A stretch of DNA of 64,000 nucleotides from positions 2,728,001-2,792,000 of the forward strand of contig NZ_LT629690.1 in NCBI RefSeq assembly GCF_900102185.1, read 5' to 3'. The position numbers and the translations under genes were made by a program. This document shows positions 10,757 to 63,116 of the stretch, piece by piece. The stretch is from Terriglobus roseus. GTDB lineage: Bacteria > Acidobacteriota > Terriglobia > Terriglobales > Acidobacteriaceae. Below the pieces are notes generated by a model. The model had not been told where the DNA came from. It ran no database searches and saw only the letters and a list, made by a program, of their open reading frames with translations. Every line of letters starts with the position of its first letter. Position 1 is the stretch's first letter.

Positions 10757-11455
10757 TTACACAGTGGGAACAATCGCTTCCGGAAATGGTTCGCCATCCA
10801 CCCAGACTGCGCCATCTACAAAGTGTTCCTTCTTCCAGATGGGCACCTGCTTCTTGATGGTGTCAATCAGCCATCGGCAAGCCTCAAACGCAGCACCACG
10901 ATGGGCGGAAGCCACGGCAATCAGGATGCTCGTTTCACCCACCTCAAGCCGTCCCAGCCGATGCACTACGGCCACATCGCGCACACCGAACTTCGCAATC
11001 GCCTCAGCTGCAAGCTGCTGCATCTGTGCGAGCGCCATTGCGTCATACGCCGAATACTCAAGAAACAGCGTCTGCCGTCCGCGGGTGTTATTACGCACAA
11101 TGCCGTCAAAAACGGTGAACGCACCATCCTCATCGGCCTTAAGTGCATCGGTGATCTTCTTCGCGTCAATCACGTCATGTGTCAGTTCAATCGGGGAAGG
11201 TGCGCCACCACTCACTGGCGGCAACAGCGCCACTTCATCGTGCTTGGATAGCTCCTGTGAAGCCGTCGCATACTGCTGATTCACCGCAACGGCAATCTTC
11301 TCCCACAGCGGCCCAAGCTCCGGCGACAGCACGCGATAGTAGCGCACCAGGTCGCCGACATTTGTACCGGGAAATTGCTCCAGCACTTCCTCCGGCCCAA
11401 AATGATCGCGAAGCACACCGAAAAACAAAACACGCAACTGCATGTCATTCAGCAT
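10757..11455 (-). CDS. Fused molybdopterin synthase, MoaD-MoaE
   Basis: About 232 residues. Residues 5-84 (MQLRVLFFGVLRDHFG ... EVALLPPVSGG) are a MoaD sulfur carrier. The rest is MoaE: HDVIDAKKITDAL, GAFTVFDGIVRNNTRGR, LEYSAYDAMA, VHRLGRLEVGE and PIWKKEHF (active-site lysines). The enzyme adds two sulfurs to precursor Z to make molybdopterin. MoaD works through a free C-terminal Gly-Gly thiocarboxylate, but here the GG (codons 11204-11209) continues into APSPIEL, so cleavage or an unusual mechanism is needed. M. tuberculosis MoaX is a known parallel. The start is either ATG ending at 11455 or ATG ending at 11443; longer versions would overlap the upstream gene. Confidence 0.92.
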   Translation of the reverse strand: MLNDMQLRVLFFGVLRDHFGPEEVLEQFPGTNVGDLVRYYRVLSPELGPLWEKIAVAVNQQYATASQELSKHDEVALLPPVSGGAPSPIELTHDVIDAKKITDALKADEDGAFTVFDGIVRNNTRGRQTLFLEYSAYDAMALAQMQQLAAEAIAKFGVRDVAVVHRLGRLEVGETSILIAVASAHRGAAFEACRWLIDTIKKQVPIWKKEHFVDGAVWVDGEPFPEAIVPTV

Positions 11456-11487
11456 ACGTGCATCCAGAACTCGGAAATGGGTACCAG

Positions 11488-12240
11488 CTATTGGAGAAAG
11501 TTGAGCAGGCATTGGTTGAAATTTTCTGTGGATTCCACGTTTGAAAGATGGGCGGCGGGCAGGGTGCGCTCTTGGCTGGTGGGAATTTGGCTTTGCAGGA
11601 ACTGGGCGTCTGCGAGAGTGCAGACGGCGTCGTGATCGCCAGCAATGATCAGAGAAGGCGCAGTGATAGAGGCAATTTCATCGCGCAGATCGCAGGTGCG
11701 GAGCGCTTCGCAACAGGCAACGTAGCCTTCAGGATTGCACGCGAGCATGCCTTCACGGATGGAGGCCACGACCTCTACATGCGATGCGGCGAAAGGCTCA
11801 GTAAACCAGCGGGAGATAACCGTATCTGCGATGGAGGCCATGCCGTTGGCGCGGACTTCAGTGATGCGCTTTTGCCAGCCGTCTTCTGTACCTACTTTTG
11901 CTGCGGTATTGCAGAGAACAAGTTTCTCGATGCGATCCGGTGCATGAACACCAAGCCATTGGCCGATGACGCCGCCGAGCGAGATACCGCAAAAGTGCGT
12001 ACTAGGAATGTTGTGGTAATCGAGGAGTTGCAACACATCATTGCCGAGATCGGCGATGGAGTATGGTCCCACCGGTGAAGGGCTACCGCCGTGGCCTCGC
12101 ATGTCATAGCGCAGAACGCGGAAGTGCTGCGTTAACACCTGCATTTGCGGTTGCCACATCTGCATGCGTGCGCCGAGTGACGTAGAGAGCACGATGCATG
12201 GCGCATCGTGCTCTCCCACGAGTTCGTGATGAAGGATCAT
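11488..12240 (-). CDS. Alpha/beta hydrolase, 3-oxoadipate enol-lactonase type (PcaD-like)
   Basis: 250 residues. Alpha/beta hydrolase fold: oxyanion region LSTSLGAR, RYDMRGHGGSP, nucleophile elbow GISLGG (serine about residue 87), late Asp in IIAGDHDAVC and catalytic His in AAHLSNVE. The motifs match PcaD, which opens 3-oxoadipate enol-lactone in protocatechuate breakdown, but no other pca gene is nearby, so the true substrate may differ. The ATG overlaps the TGA of the upstream OmpA-like gene (ATGA), indicating translational coupling. Confidence 0.78.
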   Translation of the reverse strand: MILHHELVGEHDAPCIVLSTSLGARMQMWQPQMQVLTQHFRVLRYDMRGHGGSPSPVGPYSIADLGNDVLQLLDYHNIPSTHFCGISLGGVIGQWLGVHAPDRIEKLVLCNTAAKVGTEDGWQKRITEVRANGMASIADTVISRWFTEPFAASHVEVVASIREGMLACNPEGYVACCEALRTCDLRDEIASITAPSLIIAGDHDAVCTLADAQFLQSQIPTSQERTLPAAHLSNVESTENFNQCLLNFLQ

Positions 12241-55245: not shown

Positions 55246-57870
55246 TTATTCCGTACGCAGGGCTACCATCGGATCGACAGCGGCTGCACGACGCGCAGGT
55301 AGCCACGTTCCCACCACGGCGAGCAACGGCAACGTGCACATGACCAGCGCGAAGGTGACCGGGTCATACTGCGAGGTCTGGAACAACTGGCTCTTGGCGA
55401 ACCCCGCTGCAACAAAGGCCAACGGCAGTCCCACTGCGATGCCAAGTGCGGCAAGACCGCAGGCTTGACGCAACACCATCCAGATCACGTCGCCGCGATC
55501 TGCGCCCAGCGCCATACGAACGCCAATCTCCTGCGTTCTGCGCGATGTGGCGAACGAGAACACGCCATAGATACCGATGAGGCAAAGCAGCAGAGCCGAC
55601 GCCGCGAAGGTTCCAAACAACATTAGTGCGAAGCGCGGTCCCGCGTACCCGTAGCGCTCCAGCAACTGACGTAGGGCCATGGCATCCGTTACGGGTTGAT
55701 CCTTGTCCATGGCGGCAACCACCTTACGCACGGGTTGCAGAAGATTTTCCGCAGGCAGGTTCGTTGCAATCACCAACGTATCCATCACAGGCGCAACCGT
55801 GTACGGAATGAACATGTGCGGATAGTTTTCGCGATAGCCGGGATGTATGGGCAGGTTTTGAATGATGCCTACGATGGTGAACGTGTTCTCTGTAAGCTCT
55901 TTGTCTGCGCGAGAAGCATCAACCATCTTGAATGTCTGACCAACAGCATTCCCCGCCGGGAAATAATGCGTCACAAAATCCTGTGTCACCACAGCATCAT
56001 GCGCGTGCACTGATATCTCGCGTTCGTCGATGAAGTGGCCCTCCATCATGCGGAGACCGGACATTGCAAGGTATTCCGGCGTGACCATGTGGAGATTGCT
56101 GTAATCGTTCCGCTGAAATGGCTGGCTACCAAGCTGAATCCGGCTTCCATAACCCCACAGAAATGGCAGTTCTGCATCCAACGTGACGGCCTTCACACCA
56201 GGCACATTCTGTATCTGTTTCTGCAGCTCGCTGAAGAAGCGAATCTTGTCTTCATCCTTGGGATAACGCTGCGGAGACAGCGGCACCCGCATCATCAGCG
56301 TATGTTCCGGCTGGAAGAGAACCGGTACTTTCTCCACGGAGATCATGGAACGCATCATCAACCCGGCCAGTGTCATCAACGCGAGAGAAAGCGCAATCTC
56401 AGCTACCACAAAGCCATTTAGCAAACGTCTGTGCGCGTGGCTACCCGTGGAACGAACGCTGGTGAGGGCAGCGGCAAGTCGTGGATTTGCGCTGTGCCAT
56501 GCGGGTGAAACACCGAACACCAGCACCGAGAACACAGCCATGCCGATGGACACGAGCAATACGGGCACATTTAGCGCAATCAATGCTTCATCAGGAATGG
56601 TGCCTTCGGGTACCAGATGCAACATGGCGTTGAGTCCGCCATAGGCGAAAAGAATCGCCATGGGAACAGAGATCGCCATCAGCAGGAGAGATTCCACGAT
56701 GACCTGGCGGAACAACCGCAAACGTGATGCGCCGATGGCTGCTCGAAGTACAAACTCATGTTCGCGGCGTACAGCGCGAGCCAGCAGCAGGCTCGATACG
56801 TTTACGCATGCGATCAGGAGCAGAACAAGAACGGCTCCGAGTAACAGATACAGGGTCCCAGCAAGGCCCGACTGGAACATCTCGGCAAATGGCATCAGTC
56901 CACCAATGCGGAGATTCTTTGGATGACGATGCGGATCTTGCTTTACGAAATCATTGAAGAGAGGTTGCAGTTCGCCCGCAGCCTGCACATCGGTTACGCC
57001 GGGGCGAACACGCCCCACCAGCGTGAGTCGCGAATGGCCTTCAATCTCCTGCACGGGCGTAATTGCCACTGGAAGATAAACGTCGGCACCACGCCATAAG
57101 AAACGCGGCGGCATGACACCGATGACAGTGCGTGCATGGCCGTCCACCGTGATGACTTTTCCCACCACTGCCTGGCTCCCGCCAAAGTGAGAGAGCCAGT
57201 AGCGGTTGCTCAGAACCGCCACTTCTTCATGGTCCGCAGAAACATCCGCATCGTTCGGAGAGCGCCCCAACATGGGCTGCACGCCCAGCACATCAAACGT
57301 ATTCGCCGTGATGTAGTTGCCACGGATCTGCTGAGCTTCCCCGTCGCCTGTCAGCGTAACGTTGCCAACAGTGGAGGCAGTCACGCCCTGAAAGATGTCC
57401 GTCTTCTGCTGAATCTCAAGAAACTCCGAGGGCGTGTAGTCGTCCCAGAAGCAGCGCGTGTCTTCTGGTGAACACAATCTCGGCGTTGCCAATTCCTTCA
57501 CATCGCGATAGGGAAACGGATTAACCAGCACACCGTAGGCCACGCTAAATACGGCGGTCGCTGCGCCGATGCCGAGTGCAAGCATCAGGACAACAACAAC
57601 CGTGATGCCTCGTGACTTCCAAAGCTGCCGTGCGGCGTAGCGAATATCCGCGAAAAACAACTCTACGCTCTGCCATTGCCATGCTTCGCGGCCACGCTGC
57701 TCCGTCAACAACACGTTGCCAAATTGCTTGCGCGCAGCATGCTCCGCGTCTTTGCGCGACATGCCTTCTTCCATCAGTTCGTCAATCTTCTCTTCCAGGT
57801 GCTCCTGTACAGAGACGGAGAGATCGTTATAGCGGCGACGACGCGAAAAGAGCTGACTGAGCCATCCCAT
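55246..57870 (-). CDS. MacB/FtsX-type duplicated permease (ADOP family)
   Basis: 874 residues. An N-terminal cytoplasmic part (about 1-80) includes LSVSVQEHLEEKIDELMEEGMSRKDAEHAARKQFGN, the 'permease prefix' helix seen in these proteins. Then two FtsX modules, each with a large periplasmic MacB_PCD-like part and four helices: GITVVVVLMLALGIGAATAVFSVAYGVL first, and FALMLFGTFAASALLLCLIGIYGVF late. No ATPase gene is linked, as usual for these orphan permeases, and the transported substrate is unknown. It follows the PadR gene by nine bases. Confidence 0.92.
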   Translation of the reverse strand: MGWLSQLFSRRRRYNDLSVSVQEHLEEKIDELMEEGMSRKDAEHAARKQFGNVLLTEQRGREAWQWQSVELFFADIRYAARQLWKSRGITVVVVLMLALGIGAATAVFSVAYGVLVNPFPYRDVKELATPRLCSPEDTRCFWDDYTPSEFLEIQQKTDIFQGVTASTVGNVTLTGDGEAQQIRGNYITANTFDVLGVQPMLGRSPNDADVSADHEEVAVLSNRYWLSHFGGSQAVVGKVITVDGHARTVIGVMPPRFLWRGADVYLPVAITPVQEIEGHSRLTLVGRVRPGVTDVQAAGELQPLFNDFVKQDPHRHPKNLRIGGLMPFAEMFQSGLAGTLYLLLGAVLVLLLIACVNVSSLLLARAVRREHEFVLRAAIGASRLRLFRQVIVESLLLMAISVPMAILFAYGGLNAMLHLVPEGTIPDEALIALNVPVLLVSIGMAVFSVLVFGVSPAWHSANPRLAAALTSVRSTGSHAHRRLLNGFVVAEIALSLALMTLAGLMMRSMISVEKVPVLFQPEHTLMMRVPLSPQRYPKDEDKIRFFSELQKQIQNVPGVKAVTLDAELPFLWGYGSRIQLGSQPFQRNDYSNLHMVTPEYLAMSGLRMMEGHFIDEREISVHAHDAVVTQDFVTHYFPAGNAVGQTFKMVDASRADKELTENTFTIVGIIQNLPIHPGYRENYPHMFIPYTVAPVMDTLVIATNLPAENLLQPVRKVVAAMDKDQPVTDAMALRQLLERYGYAGPRFALMLFGTFAASALLLCLIGIYGVFSFATSRRTQEIGVRMALGADRGDVIWMVLRQACGLAALGIAVGLPLAFVAAGFAKSQLFQTSQYDPVTFALVMCTLPLLAVVGTWLPARRAAAVDPMVALRTE

Positions 57871-57879
57871 GGTGAACTC

Positions 57880-58224
57880 CTAAGCCTTTACCACCGCAAG
57901 TACGCGGGTGATTCCTTCGAACATCTTTTCGAAGCTGGACTTCTCCTGCTCCAGCCGCTTCATGCCTGACTTTGTCAGTTGATAGATACGCGTGGGACGC
58001 CCCTTTGCGGAGACTCCCTCTTCCGCTTCCAGCCAGCCTTCGCGCAGCATCCGTTGAAGCGCAGGGTACAACGAACCTTCTTCGATCTGAAGCAGATCGT
58101 CAGAAACCTGCTGGATGTGTTTGACCAACGCGTAGCCATGCATTGGCTTGATGCGCAGCGAATGCAGGACCATCAGCTCCAACGCACCGGCGAAGAGGTC
58201 ACGATGTTGAGGACTCTTTCCCAT
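57880..58224 (-). CDS. PadR family transcriptional regulator
   Basis: 114 residues from the ATG ending at 58224. PadR winged helix: LFAGALELMVLHSLRIKPMHGYALVKHIQQVSDDLLQIEEGSLYPALQRMLREGWLEAEE, with the wing GRPTRIYQLTKSGMKRLEQE. PadR-ADOP pairs are a recurrent acidobacterial arrangement. It probably represses its own operon through the perfect palindrome 20 bases upstream. Confidence 0.93.
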   Translation of the reverse strand: MGKSPQHRDLFAGALELMVLHSLRIKPMHGYALVKHIQQVSDDLLQIEEGSLYPALQRMLREGWLEAEEGVSAKGRPTRIYQLTKSGMKRLEQEKSSFEKMFEGITRVLAVVKA

Positions 58225-58235
58225 GTGCGGGAGTC

Positions 58236-58269
58236 TATACCGCGTATACCTATTTTGAAAATAGGTATA
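58236..58269. promoter_or_regulatory. Probable PadR operator
   Basis: A perfect inverted repeat: TATACCTATTTT (58245-58256), a single G, then its exact complement (58258-58269). A second pair TATAC...GTATA (58236-58248) overlaps its left arm. It sits immediately upstream of the PadR start. Confidence 0.75.
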
Positions 58270-58365
58270 TCGACGAAATTTCATTTTGTGACCGTTGGAT
58301 TGGGTGTATTCCTATCGGTGGGCGGGGCTCGAATCCGGTGTCGTCGGGCCTGAATCTAATTAGCC

Positions 58366-61131: not shown

Positions 61132-61560
61132 ATGTTGAAGCTGAGCCAATCCGACTACGAAGCACTGCGCGCACATGGCGAAGAAACCTATCCGCACGAA
61201 TGTTGCGGCATTCTTCTGGGCCATGCGGGCGAAGTGAACCAGGTGGTCGAGATTATGCGTGCGGGTAATACACGCACCGACTCCGCCCACAACCGCTATC
61301 ACATTGCACCGCAGGAACTTATCAAGGCGCAGCGTGAGGGACGGAAGAAGGGACTGGACATCGTCGGCTTTTATCATTCGCACCCCGACCATCCGGCGCA
61401 GTGGTCCGTTACGGACTTTGCCGAAGCCCACTGGTTCGGATGTAGCTACGTCATCACGGCCGTAGCGCAGGGCAAGGCCGAGGTGACGAATGCATTCCTT
61501 CTGCGCGGCACCAGCGAAGAGGACAAGCAGTTTGAGGACGAAGAGATCGTCGTCGGCTAG
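61132..61560 (+). CDS. JAMM/M67 family metallopeptidase (Mec-like)
   Basis: 142 residues from ATG. The zinc site is complete: Glu23 in PHECCG, His82 and His84 in GFYHSHPDHP, Ser92 and Asp95 in SVTD, exactly the JAMM spacing HxH(7)SxxD. It is the bacterial deubiquitinase-like fold. In M. tuberculosis the relative Mec cleaves CysO-cysteine to release cysteine from a sulfur carrier. Here it is 62 bases before the gene for a sulfur carrier/E1/rhodanese fusion. A role in trimming or recycling that carrier is inferred. Confidence 0.92.
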   Translation: MLKLSQSDYEALRAHGEETYPHECCGILLGHAGEVNQVVEIMRAGNTRTDSAHNRYHIAPQELIKAQREGRKKGLDIVGFYHSHPDHPAQWSVTDFAEAHWFGCSYVITAVAQGKAEVTNAFLLRGTSEEDKQFEDEEIVVG

Positions 61561-61622
61561 TTCACTTCACCCGGACCACCCCGCTGCATCCAATGGCATG
61601 CAGTCGTAATCCAAAGGAAGTT

Positions 61623-63116
61623 ATGACGATTCTGATTCCAACACCGCTGCGTGGATTTACGGACAACAAGTCCACCGTTGACGTAACCGCAGCCAATGTC
61701 AAAGAAGCTCTTGCCGCGCTGACTGAAGCGCATCCCGCCATTAAGGGTCACCTGTTCAACGCCGAAGGCAAGCTGCGCTCCTTCGTGAACGTTTATGTGA
61801 ACGATGACGATATCCGCGATCTGCCGGGCAAGGATGAGACGACGCTGAATGCAGGCGACGAAATCTCCATCATTCCGTCCATCGCCGGTGGCGCACCCGC
61901 TATTGCGGAAGAAGCGATCGCAGAAGAACTGCCGACGCTGACCAACGAAGAGATTGCGCGCTACTCGCGCCACCTGATCCTTCCAGAAGTGGGCATGGAT
62001 GGTCAGCGCAAGCTGAAGGCCGCGAAGGTGCTCTGCGTGGGCACGGGCGGACTGGGCGCGCCGCTGGCTCTGTATCTTGCAGCCGCGGGCGTAGGCACCA
62101 TCGGCCTGGTTGATTTCGACGTAGTCGACGAGAGCAACCTGCAGCGCCAGATCATCCACTCGCAGTCCACTGTAGGCAAGCTTAAGGTCGACTCGGCAGA
62201 GCAGATGCTGAAGGGGCTGAACAAGAACATCAATGTTGTGAAGCACAACACGATGTTGACCTCTGCGAACGCCCTGGAAATCTTCAAGGAATACGACGTC
62301 ATTGCCGACGGCACCGACAACTTCCAGACGCGTTACCTGGTGAACGATGCCTGCGTTCTGACGGGCAAGCCGAATGCGTATGGCTCCATCTTCCGCTTTG
62401 AAGGACAGGCATCTGTCTTCGCCACGGAAGAAGGCCCCTGCTACCGCTGCCTGTATCCCGAACCGCCACCGCCGGGACTGGTTCCCTCGTGCGCTGAAGG
62501 TGGCGTACTTGGCATTCTGCCCGGCCTTGTCGGCGTAATTCAGGCTACGGAAGTGATCAAGCTGATCCTTGGCATTGGCGAACCGCTCATCGGCCGCCTG
62601 CTGCTGGTGGATGCGCTGGGAATGAGCTTCCGCACGCTGAAGCTGCGTAAGAACCCGAACTGCCCCGCTTGCGGAACGCACGAGATCAAGGAGCTGATTG
62701 ATTACAACCAGTTCTGCGGTGTCGCTGCCCCCACGGAAGTTGGTCCCCTGGAAGTGGCTTCCCATGGCGTTGTCACCGGCCTGGAAGACATCGACGGTAT
62801 TCCGCAGATCAGCGTGGAAGAGCTGAAGGCAAAGCGCGAAGAAGGCAAGGCGTTCATCCTGGACGTGCGTGAACCCCATGAGGTTCAGATCGTCTCGATT
62901 GGCGCTCAGTTGATTCCCGTTGGAGAACTGGAACAGCGCGTCGGTGAGATTGCCTCGCACAAGAACGACGAAGTACTCGTTCATTGCCGGAGCGGCGCAC
63001 GTTCGCAGAAGGCTTCGCTCATTCTGAAGAACGCGGGCTTCACGAACGTGAAGAACGTTGCGGGCGGCATTCTGGCGTGGGCCGATCGCATCGATCCGAG
63101 CTTGCCGAAGTACTAA
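61623..63116 (+). CDS. Fused sulfur carrier (ThiS/MoaD/CysO-like), E1 adenylyltransferase (MoeB/ThiF) and rhodanese
   Basis: 497 residues with AAAGGAAG before the ATG. Residues 1-90 are a ubiquitin-like carrier (ILIPTPLRGFTDNKSTVDVTA, GLHLFNAEGKLRSFVNVYVNDDDIRDL-like, ISIIPSIAGG) with its Gly-Gly at residues 89-90. Residues about 115-365 are an E1: GTGGLGAPLALYLAAAGVGTIGL (ATP site, about 138), DFDVVDESNLQRQ, DGTDNFQTRYL and two zinc CxxC pairs (CYRC, CPACG). The C-terminus is a rhodanese with active loop CRSGAR (about 454). All parts for making a thiocarboxylated carrier are in one chain, but the Gly-Gly is not free. It diverges from nothing; follows the JAMM gene. Confidence 0.93.
   Translation: MTILIPTPLRGFTDNKSTVDVTAANVKEALAALTEAHPAIKGHLFNAEGKLRSFVNVYVNDDDIRDLPGKDETTLNAGDEISIIPSIAGGAPAIAEEAIAEELPTLTNEEIARYSRHLILPEVGMDGQRKLKAAKVLCVGTGGLGAPLALYLAAAGVGTIGLVDFDVVDESNLQRQIIHSQSTVGKLKVDSAEQMLKGLNKNINVVKHNTMLTSANALEIFKEYDVIADGTDNFQTRYLVNDACVLTGKPNAYGSIFRFEGQASVFATEEGPCYRCLYPEPPPPGLVPSCAEGGVLGILPGLVGVIQATEVIKLILGIGEPLIGRLLLVDALGMSFRTLKLRKNPNCPACGTHEIKELIDYNQFCGVAAPTEVGPLEVASHGVVTGLEDIDGIPQISVEELKAKREEGKAFILDVREPHEVQIVSIGAQLIPVGELEQRVGEIASHKNDEVLVHCRSGARSQKASLILKNAGFTNVKNVAGGILAWADRIDPSLPKY

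Follow-up and report, generated by a model that had tools for sequence, protein, structure and literature searches.

A sulfur carrier encoded in one chain with its own E1 and rhodanese, beside a JAMM peptidase: a probable carrier precursor in an acidobacterial genome

How can a ubiquitin-like sulfur carrier be activated when its Gly-Gly lies inside a longer protein instead of at its end? This question is raised by a gene pair in a 64,000-nucleotide stretch of contig NZ_LT629690.1 (the window; positions 2728001-2792000 of a single-contig genome of 4.85 Mb). A JAMM peptidase gene (61132-61560, + strand, 142 amino acids) is followed, after a gap of 62 nucleotides, by a gene (61623-63116, + strand) for a protein of 497 amino acids in which a carrier domain, an E1-type adenylation domain and a rhodanese domain form a single chain. 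From sequence comparisons, we consider it probable that this fusion is a precursor: the JAMM peptidase would cut after Gly90, the carrier would then be charged with sulfur and used by a CysM-type enzyme, and the same peptidase would release cysteine. The fusion is not an accident of assembly, since the whole chain is present in two genomes of the same genus (96 and 98% identity) and the same architecture is found elsewhere in the phylum and, at a few loci, in other phyla.

Pfam assigned ThiS to residues 3-90 of the fusion (61629-61892; PF02597, 6.7e-12), ThiF to residues 114-349 (61962-62669; PF00899, 1.9e-81) and Rhodanese to residues 397-487 (62811-63083; PF00581, 8e-14), the last with a CRSGARS loop. 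Together with the motifs GTGGLG (from residue 140), CYRC (273), SCAEGG (289), CPAC (347) and HCRSGARS (454), these domains provide all features of an E1-rhodanese of the MoeZR/Uba4 type, namely a ThiF domain with CxxC motifs, an active-site cysteine and a C-terminal rhodanese domain with its cysteine. The adenylation domain belongs to the MoeB/MoeZ/Uba4/ThiF family, and the fusion scored below the cut-offs of the NCBIfam MoeB/MoeZ equivalogs with rhodanese (520 of 633 and 494 of 647 bits). The carrier domain matched the structures 4n6e_B (ThiS/MoaD family) and 3dwg_C, the latter of which we take to be CysO; the 3dwg_C chain terminates at the residue aligned to Gly90. In the fusion, Gly89-Gly90 (61887-61892) is internal: the frame continues through Ala-Pro-Ala into the E1 without a stop. 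A free Gly-Gly end is not encoded, an arrangement in which cleavage, predicted directly after Gly90, should be needed before the carrier can be adenylated.

The linker APAIAEEAIAEELP (61893-61934), which leads from carrier to E1, has counterparts in fused relatives. In an AlphaFold2 model of the fusion with a mean predicted local distance difference test score (pLDDT) of 88.7, confidence fell below 50 in two stretches, residues 89-95, starting at Gly89-Gly90, and residues 375-385, before the rhodanese domain. Foldseek matched this model best to Uba4 (6yub_A) and then to MoeB (1jw9_B). We also considered that free carrier might arise by internal re-initiation or frameshift; this was set aside, as the linker frame contains no ATG, GTG or TTG, and inspection by eye revealed no stop near Gly-Gly in the other two frames.

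The JAMM protein matched Pfam Prok-JAB (E=1.6e-24), and the nearest solved sequence is 2kcq. Its catalytic set is complete (Glu23, His82, His84, Ser92 and Asp95), in agreement with the JAMM motif E...H-x-H-x(7)-S-x(2)-D as given in PMC8832034. The closest NCBIfam model is desampylase, with a score below cut-off, and we class the protein as a JAMM/MPN+ metallopeptidase of Mec/DRJAMM/desampylase-like type and a putative carrier maturase. The genome holds a second Prok-JAB match, a 166-amino-acid JAB protein encoded beside a 644-amino-acid E1-E2 protein (L002/L005, about C1:691203-692356); this pair strongly matched PADLOC defence models (JAB 8e-52, E1-E2 5e-179). An initial annotation of the window, made from its letters, had described the carrier/E1/rhodanese chain of 497 residues, the Gly-Gly at residues 89-90 followed by Ala-Pro-Ala and the E1, and the complete JAMM upstream with the same five residues, all of which is confirmed by the profile matches and motifs.

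Both the fusion and the JAMM protein served as queries against 396 genomes of the phylum, and a JAMM relative was detected in 175 of them. Carrier and E1-rhodanese share one open frame in 88 genomes among the matches listed, a count that excludes G265 and G237, in which a stop separates carrier from E1 (both are split), and G242, in which a contig end cuts the gene. The JAMM gene lies directly upstream on the same strand in 80 of these 88 genomes (74 by coordinates, one of them, G267, as a single chain, and 6 by profile search of fetched stretches), and a JAMM relative occurs somewhere in 87. The pairing of fusion and JAMM that had been noted in the window is the common state among these fused genomes, the opposite of what would have refuted the initial annotation, a fusion that in relatives never has a JAMM neighbor. 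In two loci the association is closer still. L166, from genome G267, encodes JAMM, ThiS, ThiF and rhodanese in a single chain of 618 residues (234-2090, - strand), and in L063 (5557-6267) the JAMM domain is joined to a carrier ending in GG-R, with the E1-rhodanese as the next gene.

We collected 206 loci with an E1, of which 197 were left after removal of identical ones. The sequence AGG ends the carrier domain in all 110 fused proteins of these loci, although the carrier domains have a mean pairwise identity of only 56% (1500 sampled pairs) and, in the median column, the most frequent residue accounts for 64%. A domain serving as an anchor alone would not need so exact an end. The linkers behind AGG, counted up to where the E1 profile match begins, span 3-33 amino acids (median 12) and contain 3 cysteines in 1449 residues. 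In the JAMM sequences of the collected loci, both histidines, the serine and the aspartate were found in 170 of 170 and the glutamate in 169, the remaining sequence having a gap; the catalytic residues are intact in all 102 sequences from fused loci.

In split relatives, where the carrier is a separate gene, a free Gly-Gly end is also seldom encoded: 74 of 77 split carriers have 1 to 27 residues behind Gly-Gly (the tail counts omit L045, a fused gene broken by N). Therefore, an encoded blocked end is the rule of the family, and fusion to the E1 is one form of it. In a FastTree phylogeny of 195 E1-rhodanese sequences, the fused or split state changes at least 13 times, with at least 8 changes forced by starred branches; the tree does not tell in which direction. 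The clade of the window (L010-L012, L014, L040 and L041) is a fused group amid split ones, and the best named relative fetched is the Terriglobus roseus locus L040. Such repeated changes are as expected if anything behind Gly-Gly is removed.

The window genome encodes four PF02597 carriers, all of which are blocked after Gly-Gly: the fusion (GG-APAIA), a MoaD-MoaE fusion (GG-APSPI), ThiS (GG-C) and a ThiS/Urm1-like carrier (GG-CK; L009 positions 1495-1758, - strand, about C1:2528432) beside a threonine synthase gene (NCBIfam thrC above cut-off). The MoaD-MoaE fusion is the second blocked carrier within the window (10757-11512, - strand; Pfam ThiS 28-103, MoaE 111-222), and in it VSGG is followed by APSPIEL and MoaE; Deinococcus DRJAMM cuts a protein of this type.

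If the JAMM peptidase unblocks carriers, blocked carriers should be rare in genomes without it. To compare the two groups, we read ThiS-family matches listed for the same 396 genomes, defining genomes as JAMM-less when they contained no relative of the window JAMM at E<=1e-3. All matches from JAMM-less genomes, except the G140 fusion, and selected ones from JAMM-bearing genomes were used, and fused carrier-E1 matches were left out. Where the genome has a JAMM relative, 43 of 71 loci (66 genomes) hold a blocked carrier, compared with 1 of 27 loci (25 genomes) where it has none, and the lone blocked locus of the latter group belongs to G140, a genome that also holds a fused carrier-E1 gene. With the JAMM-poor genus g39 added, the difference had p=1.7e-11 by locus and 6e-8 when the family of the window was excluded, for loci that were the best-scoring matches, partly selected by us and not drawn at random; by family it had p=0.0018 (18/29 versus 1/13), the families being not fully independent. 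In g39 (L256-L285), 30 of 30 ThiS/MoaD carriers end exactly at Gly-Gly; 18 of these loci are from JAMM-less genomes, 11 are of unknown JAMM status and were not counted, and 1 (G378) is from a genome with JAMM. Of another 29 loci, 6 could not be read reliably and 6 entered the counts; the other 17 (15 blocked; L233 and L249 unblocked) come from genomes outside the JAMM search and were set aside. Blocked ThiS-family carriers are thus almost always found in genomes that have a relative of the window JAMM.

The initial annotation left the product of the system open and stated that no cysM lies in the window. The latter is correct, as none of the 7 PALP-family matches of the genome falls inside it; an orthologue is encoded elsewhere (L225, C1:3035900), 245 kb from the pair. 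This protein is 91% identical to the T. roseus CysM encoded beside JAMM and scored below the NCBIfam cysM cut-off (318 of 394 bits). Across relatives, the test covered the 74 loci in which 3.5 kb or more precede the E1 gene, and a CysM-type gene was called at 140 bits or more. In 51 of them, T. roseus included, such a gene lies upstream within 3 kb and in the same orientation; in 3 it has the opposite orientation, 2 loci have a weak match and the remaining 18 have none. As described in PMC3227635, the mycobacterial CysO route is built from these components: carrier, E1-rhodanese, JAMM and CysM. Given how often a CysM-type gene lies upstream, we favor cysteine, made by CysM-type synthesis, as the likely product.

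What is observed is the order of the domains, the internal and conserved Gly-Gly, and the link of the locus to JAMM and cysM across genomes. The route that we propose from these observations predicts the cut and where it falls, the sulfur chemistry, the product and a dual role of the peptidase. The 497-amino-acid precursor would be made first, and JAMM cleavage after Gly90 would yield a free carrier ending in Gly-Gly and an E1-rhodanese enzyme. By analogy with the family, the freed E1 would adenylate Gly90 and the rhodanese cysteine would donate sulfur to give the carrier thiocarboxylate, from which CysM, encoded elsewhere in the genome, would take the sulfur to form a carrier-cysteine adduct. 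The same JAMM peptidase would then act on this adduct in the manner of Mec and release cysteine. It probably also unblocks the MoaD-MoaE fusion, ThiS (GG-C) and the carrier linked to threonine synthase (GG-CK).

Several observations weigh against this route, or against parts of it. Three of the 77 split carriers, each with JAMM beside it, already end at Gly-Gly (L072, L078 and L095); therefore, release from the E1 cannot be the only job of the peptidase, and an additional Mec-like release of cysteine is likely. In JAMM-bearing genomes, 28 of the 71 carriers are unblocked, indicating that JAMM permits blocking and does not require it. In 7 of the 88 fused genomes (G325, G125, G367, G014, G175, G054 and G235), the JAMM gene is elsewhere in the genome and not adjacent, although in G235 the contig begins at the fusion gene. 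No JAMM relative was found in one more, G140, a draft of about 650 contigs with a weak Prok-JAB match of 20.5 bits. Of the 43 genomes termed JAMM-less, 29 match the general Prok-JAB model, 11 of them above its cut-off. The shortest linkers, of 3 amino acids (L014 and L130), may hinder a protease, and an AlphaFold2 model of the L063 JAMM-carrier chain (predicted template modelling score 0.67; model confidence about 59 at the last residues) does not show whether the carrier tail enters the JAMM site. Moreover, Iyer et al. (2006; PMC1779556) described ThiF proteins with an N-terminal ubiquitin-like domain, usually beside a separate ThiS gene, and concluded that this domain has another role, so that an E1 with a fused ubiquitin-like domain need not be a precursor.

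The last point leads to an alternative in which the fusion works uncut, its carrier domain being structural or regulatory, and its E1-rhodanese part charges ThiS, MoaD and the carrier linked to threonine synthase in trans. Such a role would fit the Ub-like-ThiF proteins of 2006 and mycobacterial MoeZR, which serves several carriers according to PMC3227635. Outside the E1-E2/JAB defence locus, moreover, the window genome has one other E1 (L004, MoeB/ThiF type, no rhodanese match), and some genomes with the fusion, such as G325 and G355, have MoaD or ThiS ending at Gly-Gly. However, a non-catalytic domain would have no need of AGG in every fused protein, close relatives encode the carrier domain in a gene of its own, with at least 13 changes of state, and the other carriers of the window genome are blocked too. 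We consider this explanation improbable.

A peptidase purely of the Mec or desampylase type, hydrolysing carrier-cysteine or carrier-protein adducts while another protease splits the fusion, would account for the JAMM genes beside carriers that already end at Gly-Gly, for cysM as the usual upstream neighbor and for desampylase as the nearest NCBIfam model, below cut-off though it is. It does not explain why blocked carriers, mostly ThiS and MoaD, follow the presence of JAMM, and JAMM cleavage of MoaD-MoaE is known (PMC8832034); JAMM and carrier also share one chain in L063 and L166. This alternative is unlikely in our view, if less so than an uncut fusion. The locus could also serve to modify proteins, as archaeal SAMP does together with an E1 and a desampylase, and the nearest NCBIfam models of the locus parts are indeed SAMP1, the SAMP-activating E1 and desampylase, all below cut-off. 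Such a function would be compatible with cleavage, and its probability overlaps with that of the precursor route; the rhodanese domain and the cysM neighbor point instead to sulfur transfer, and we hold it to be the least probable of the three. Release of the carrier from its own E1 by JAMM, put forward in the initial annotation and in its general form anticipated in 2006, gains good comparative support from the invariant AGG, the adjacent JAMM gene in 80 of 88 fused genomes among the matches listed and the tie between blocking and JAMM; a role of the peptidase confined to E1 release does not fit.

JAMM trimming of sulfur carriers is known from QbsE/QbsD and HcyS/HcyD, in which the JAMM protein removes a short C-terminal tail, not a whole enzyme. 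For carriers fused to other proteins, the view in the initial annotation that known parallels are split systems is incomplete. Release of fused ThiS/MoaD by JAB was proposed by Iyer et al. (2006), who described Ub-like-ThiF fusions in the same work (PMC1779556), and cleavage of a fused carrier by a JAMM protein has since been published: DRJAMM cuts Deinococcus MoaD-MoaE, leaves a terminal glycine and is required to activate the fusion (PMC8832034). Mycobacterial MoaX is cut at Gly82-Ser83 in an essential step that requires Gly81, by a protease not identified in the cited account (PMC4326299). Archaeal JAMM proteins also process ubiquitin-like precursors: CsRpn11 cuts behind the Gly-Gly of a ubiquitin precursor, and the substrates of CsJAMM are SAMP precursors (PMC6043591). 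The window locus has the features of the fused-carrier class, namely a conserved internal Gly-Gly, a low-confidence linker predicted to be flexible, a second enzyme and a JAMM gene in the genome. Similar to MoaD-MoaE and MoaX, it has a carrier with internal Gly-Gly fused to another protein; the cut after Gly-Gly and the need for it, established in those systems, are predicted here. By contrast, the fused partner in those proteins is the acceptor MoaE, whereas in the window it is the E1 activator and sulfur donor, the very enzyme that needs the free end.

Other known arrangements resemble the locus in part. The mycobacterial CysO-Mec-CysM-MoeZR system described in PMC3227635 has the same four activities (carrier, E1-rhodanese, JAMM and CysM), but there the carrier and MoeZR are separate proteins, whereas the window encodes them in one chain and cysM is unlinked. 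The ThiS/MoaD-JAB-E1-rhodanese(-CysM) neighborhoods of Iyer et al. correspond in operon types 4b and 4c, with an acidobacterium under 4c; in the cited passages the carrier of these operons is a separate gene, with no mention of a carrier-E1-rhodanese chain, four-domain chain or blocked split carriers (PMC1779556). ThiF of the Campylobacter type likewise has an ubiquitin-like domain ahead of the E1, but this domain is described as distinct from ThiS and usually occurs beside a separate ThiS gene in thiamin operons, with neither rhodanese nor JAMM mentioned in the passages concerned (PMC1779556). Among the open-licence papers listed, we found no report of a processed carrier-E1-rhodanese fusion, of its one-chain form with JAMM or of a phylum-wide tie between carrier blocking and JAMM. 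JAMM release of fused carriers as such is known.

Iyer et al. (2006) termed the link between JAB and one group of sulfur-carrier operons "more mysterious" (PMC1779556). The present comparison offers an answer, in that JAMM may let bacteria encode ubiquitin-like carriers as precursors. The system would be a bacterial counterpart of ubiquitin precursor processing in which the masking group is the E1 itself. One protease is predicted to gate several cofactor pathways, and close relatives that switch between fused and split forms provide natural experiments.

The tails of split carriers differ from fused linkers in composition. Cysteine accounts for 98 of 546 residues behind Gly-Gly, versus 3 of 1449 in the linkers, and is present in 50 of 77 tails. 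Nine loci (L017-L020, L022, L026, L044, L048 and L050) have tails with at least 4 cysteines in the last 14 codons. In eleven others (L052, L080, L085, L086, L088, L091, L093, L094, L098, L108 and L115), a separate short open reading frame (ORF) with a Cys-run lies between carrier and E1; the free leader of L080, MPRLSTCCCCCPLCCCR, is an example. In 9 of these 11 loci, the leader stops 49-55 nucleotides before the called E1 start. A Cys-run occurs at the carrier-E1 junction in 20 of 78 loci flagged split versus 0 of 32 flagged fused. Elsewhere, 58 Cys-dense ORF ends were counted in 1.39 Mb, a density at which about 0.4 would be expected at the junctions (150 nucleotides x 57 loci); L045 has one before JAMM, and single ones occur in L063 and L116, away from the carrier-E1 junction.

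These Cys-runs look like a cysteine-sensing leader acting in translation. Since they are found either free or attached to the carrier, a translational role would account for the two forms more readily than would a function of the tail as part of the carrier. Polycysteine short ORFs of mycobacteria are cysteine attenuators (Canestrari 2020, as cited in PMC9094748), and leader peptides are treated in PMC1262725. As far as these sources describe them, the mycobacterial attenuators share with the split relatives a series of cysteine codons that ends at a stop and precedes sulfur genes. In some split relatives, by contrast, the series forms either a leader of its own or an in-frame extension of the carrier beyond Gly-Gly. 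Predicted folds of 29 junction RNAs gave mixed z scores from +2.0 to -3.9, with no common RNA structure seen among them. For the window operon itself, an attenuator was considered and rejected, as it has no Cys-dense ORF end and the in-frame stretch containing cysteine codons before JAMM is not open in L011 and L012 of the same genus.

A broader reading, which we advance tentatively, is that JAMM-bearing bacteria can place any sequence downstream of Gly-Gly, as a single housekeeping JAMM peptidase would clear this slot of whatever it contains. The slot may be filled by the carrier's own E1, by MoaE or by a cysteine-sensing polycysteine tail that tunes translation of the E1, and JAMM would then be a general maturase coupling the synthesis of cysteine, molybdopterin and thiamin.

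Two further features concern the layout of the locus. A gene named CTP-synthase-like from sequence reading lies upstream of the JAMM gene, and an alternative in-frame ATG at 61593 would add 10 residues to the fusion. Elsewhere in the window (55246-58284, - strand), a gene for an 874-amino-acid MacB/FtsX-like permease adjoins a small PadR-like regulator gene, both likewise named from sequence reading.

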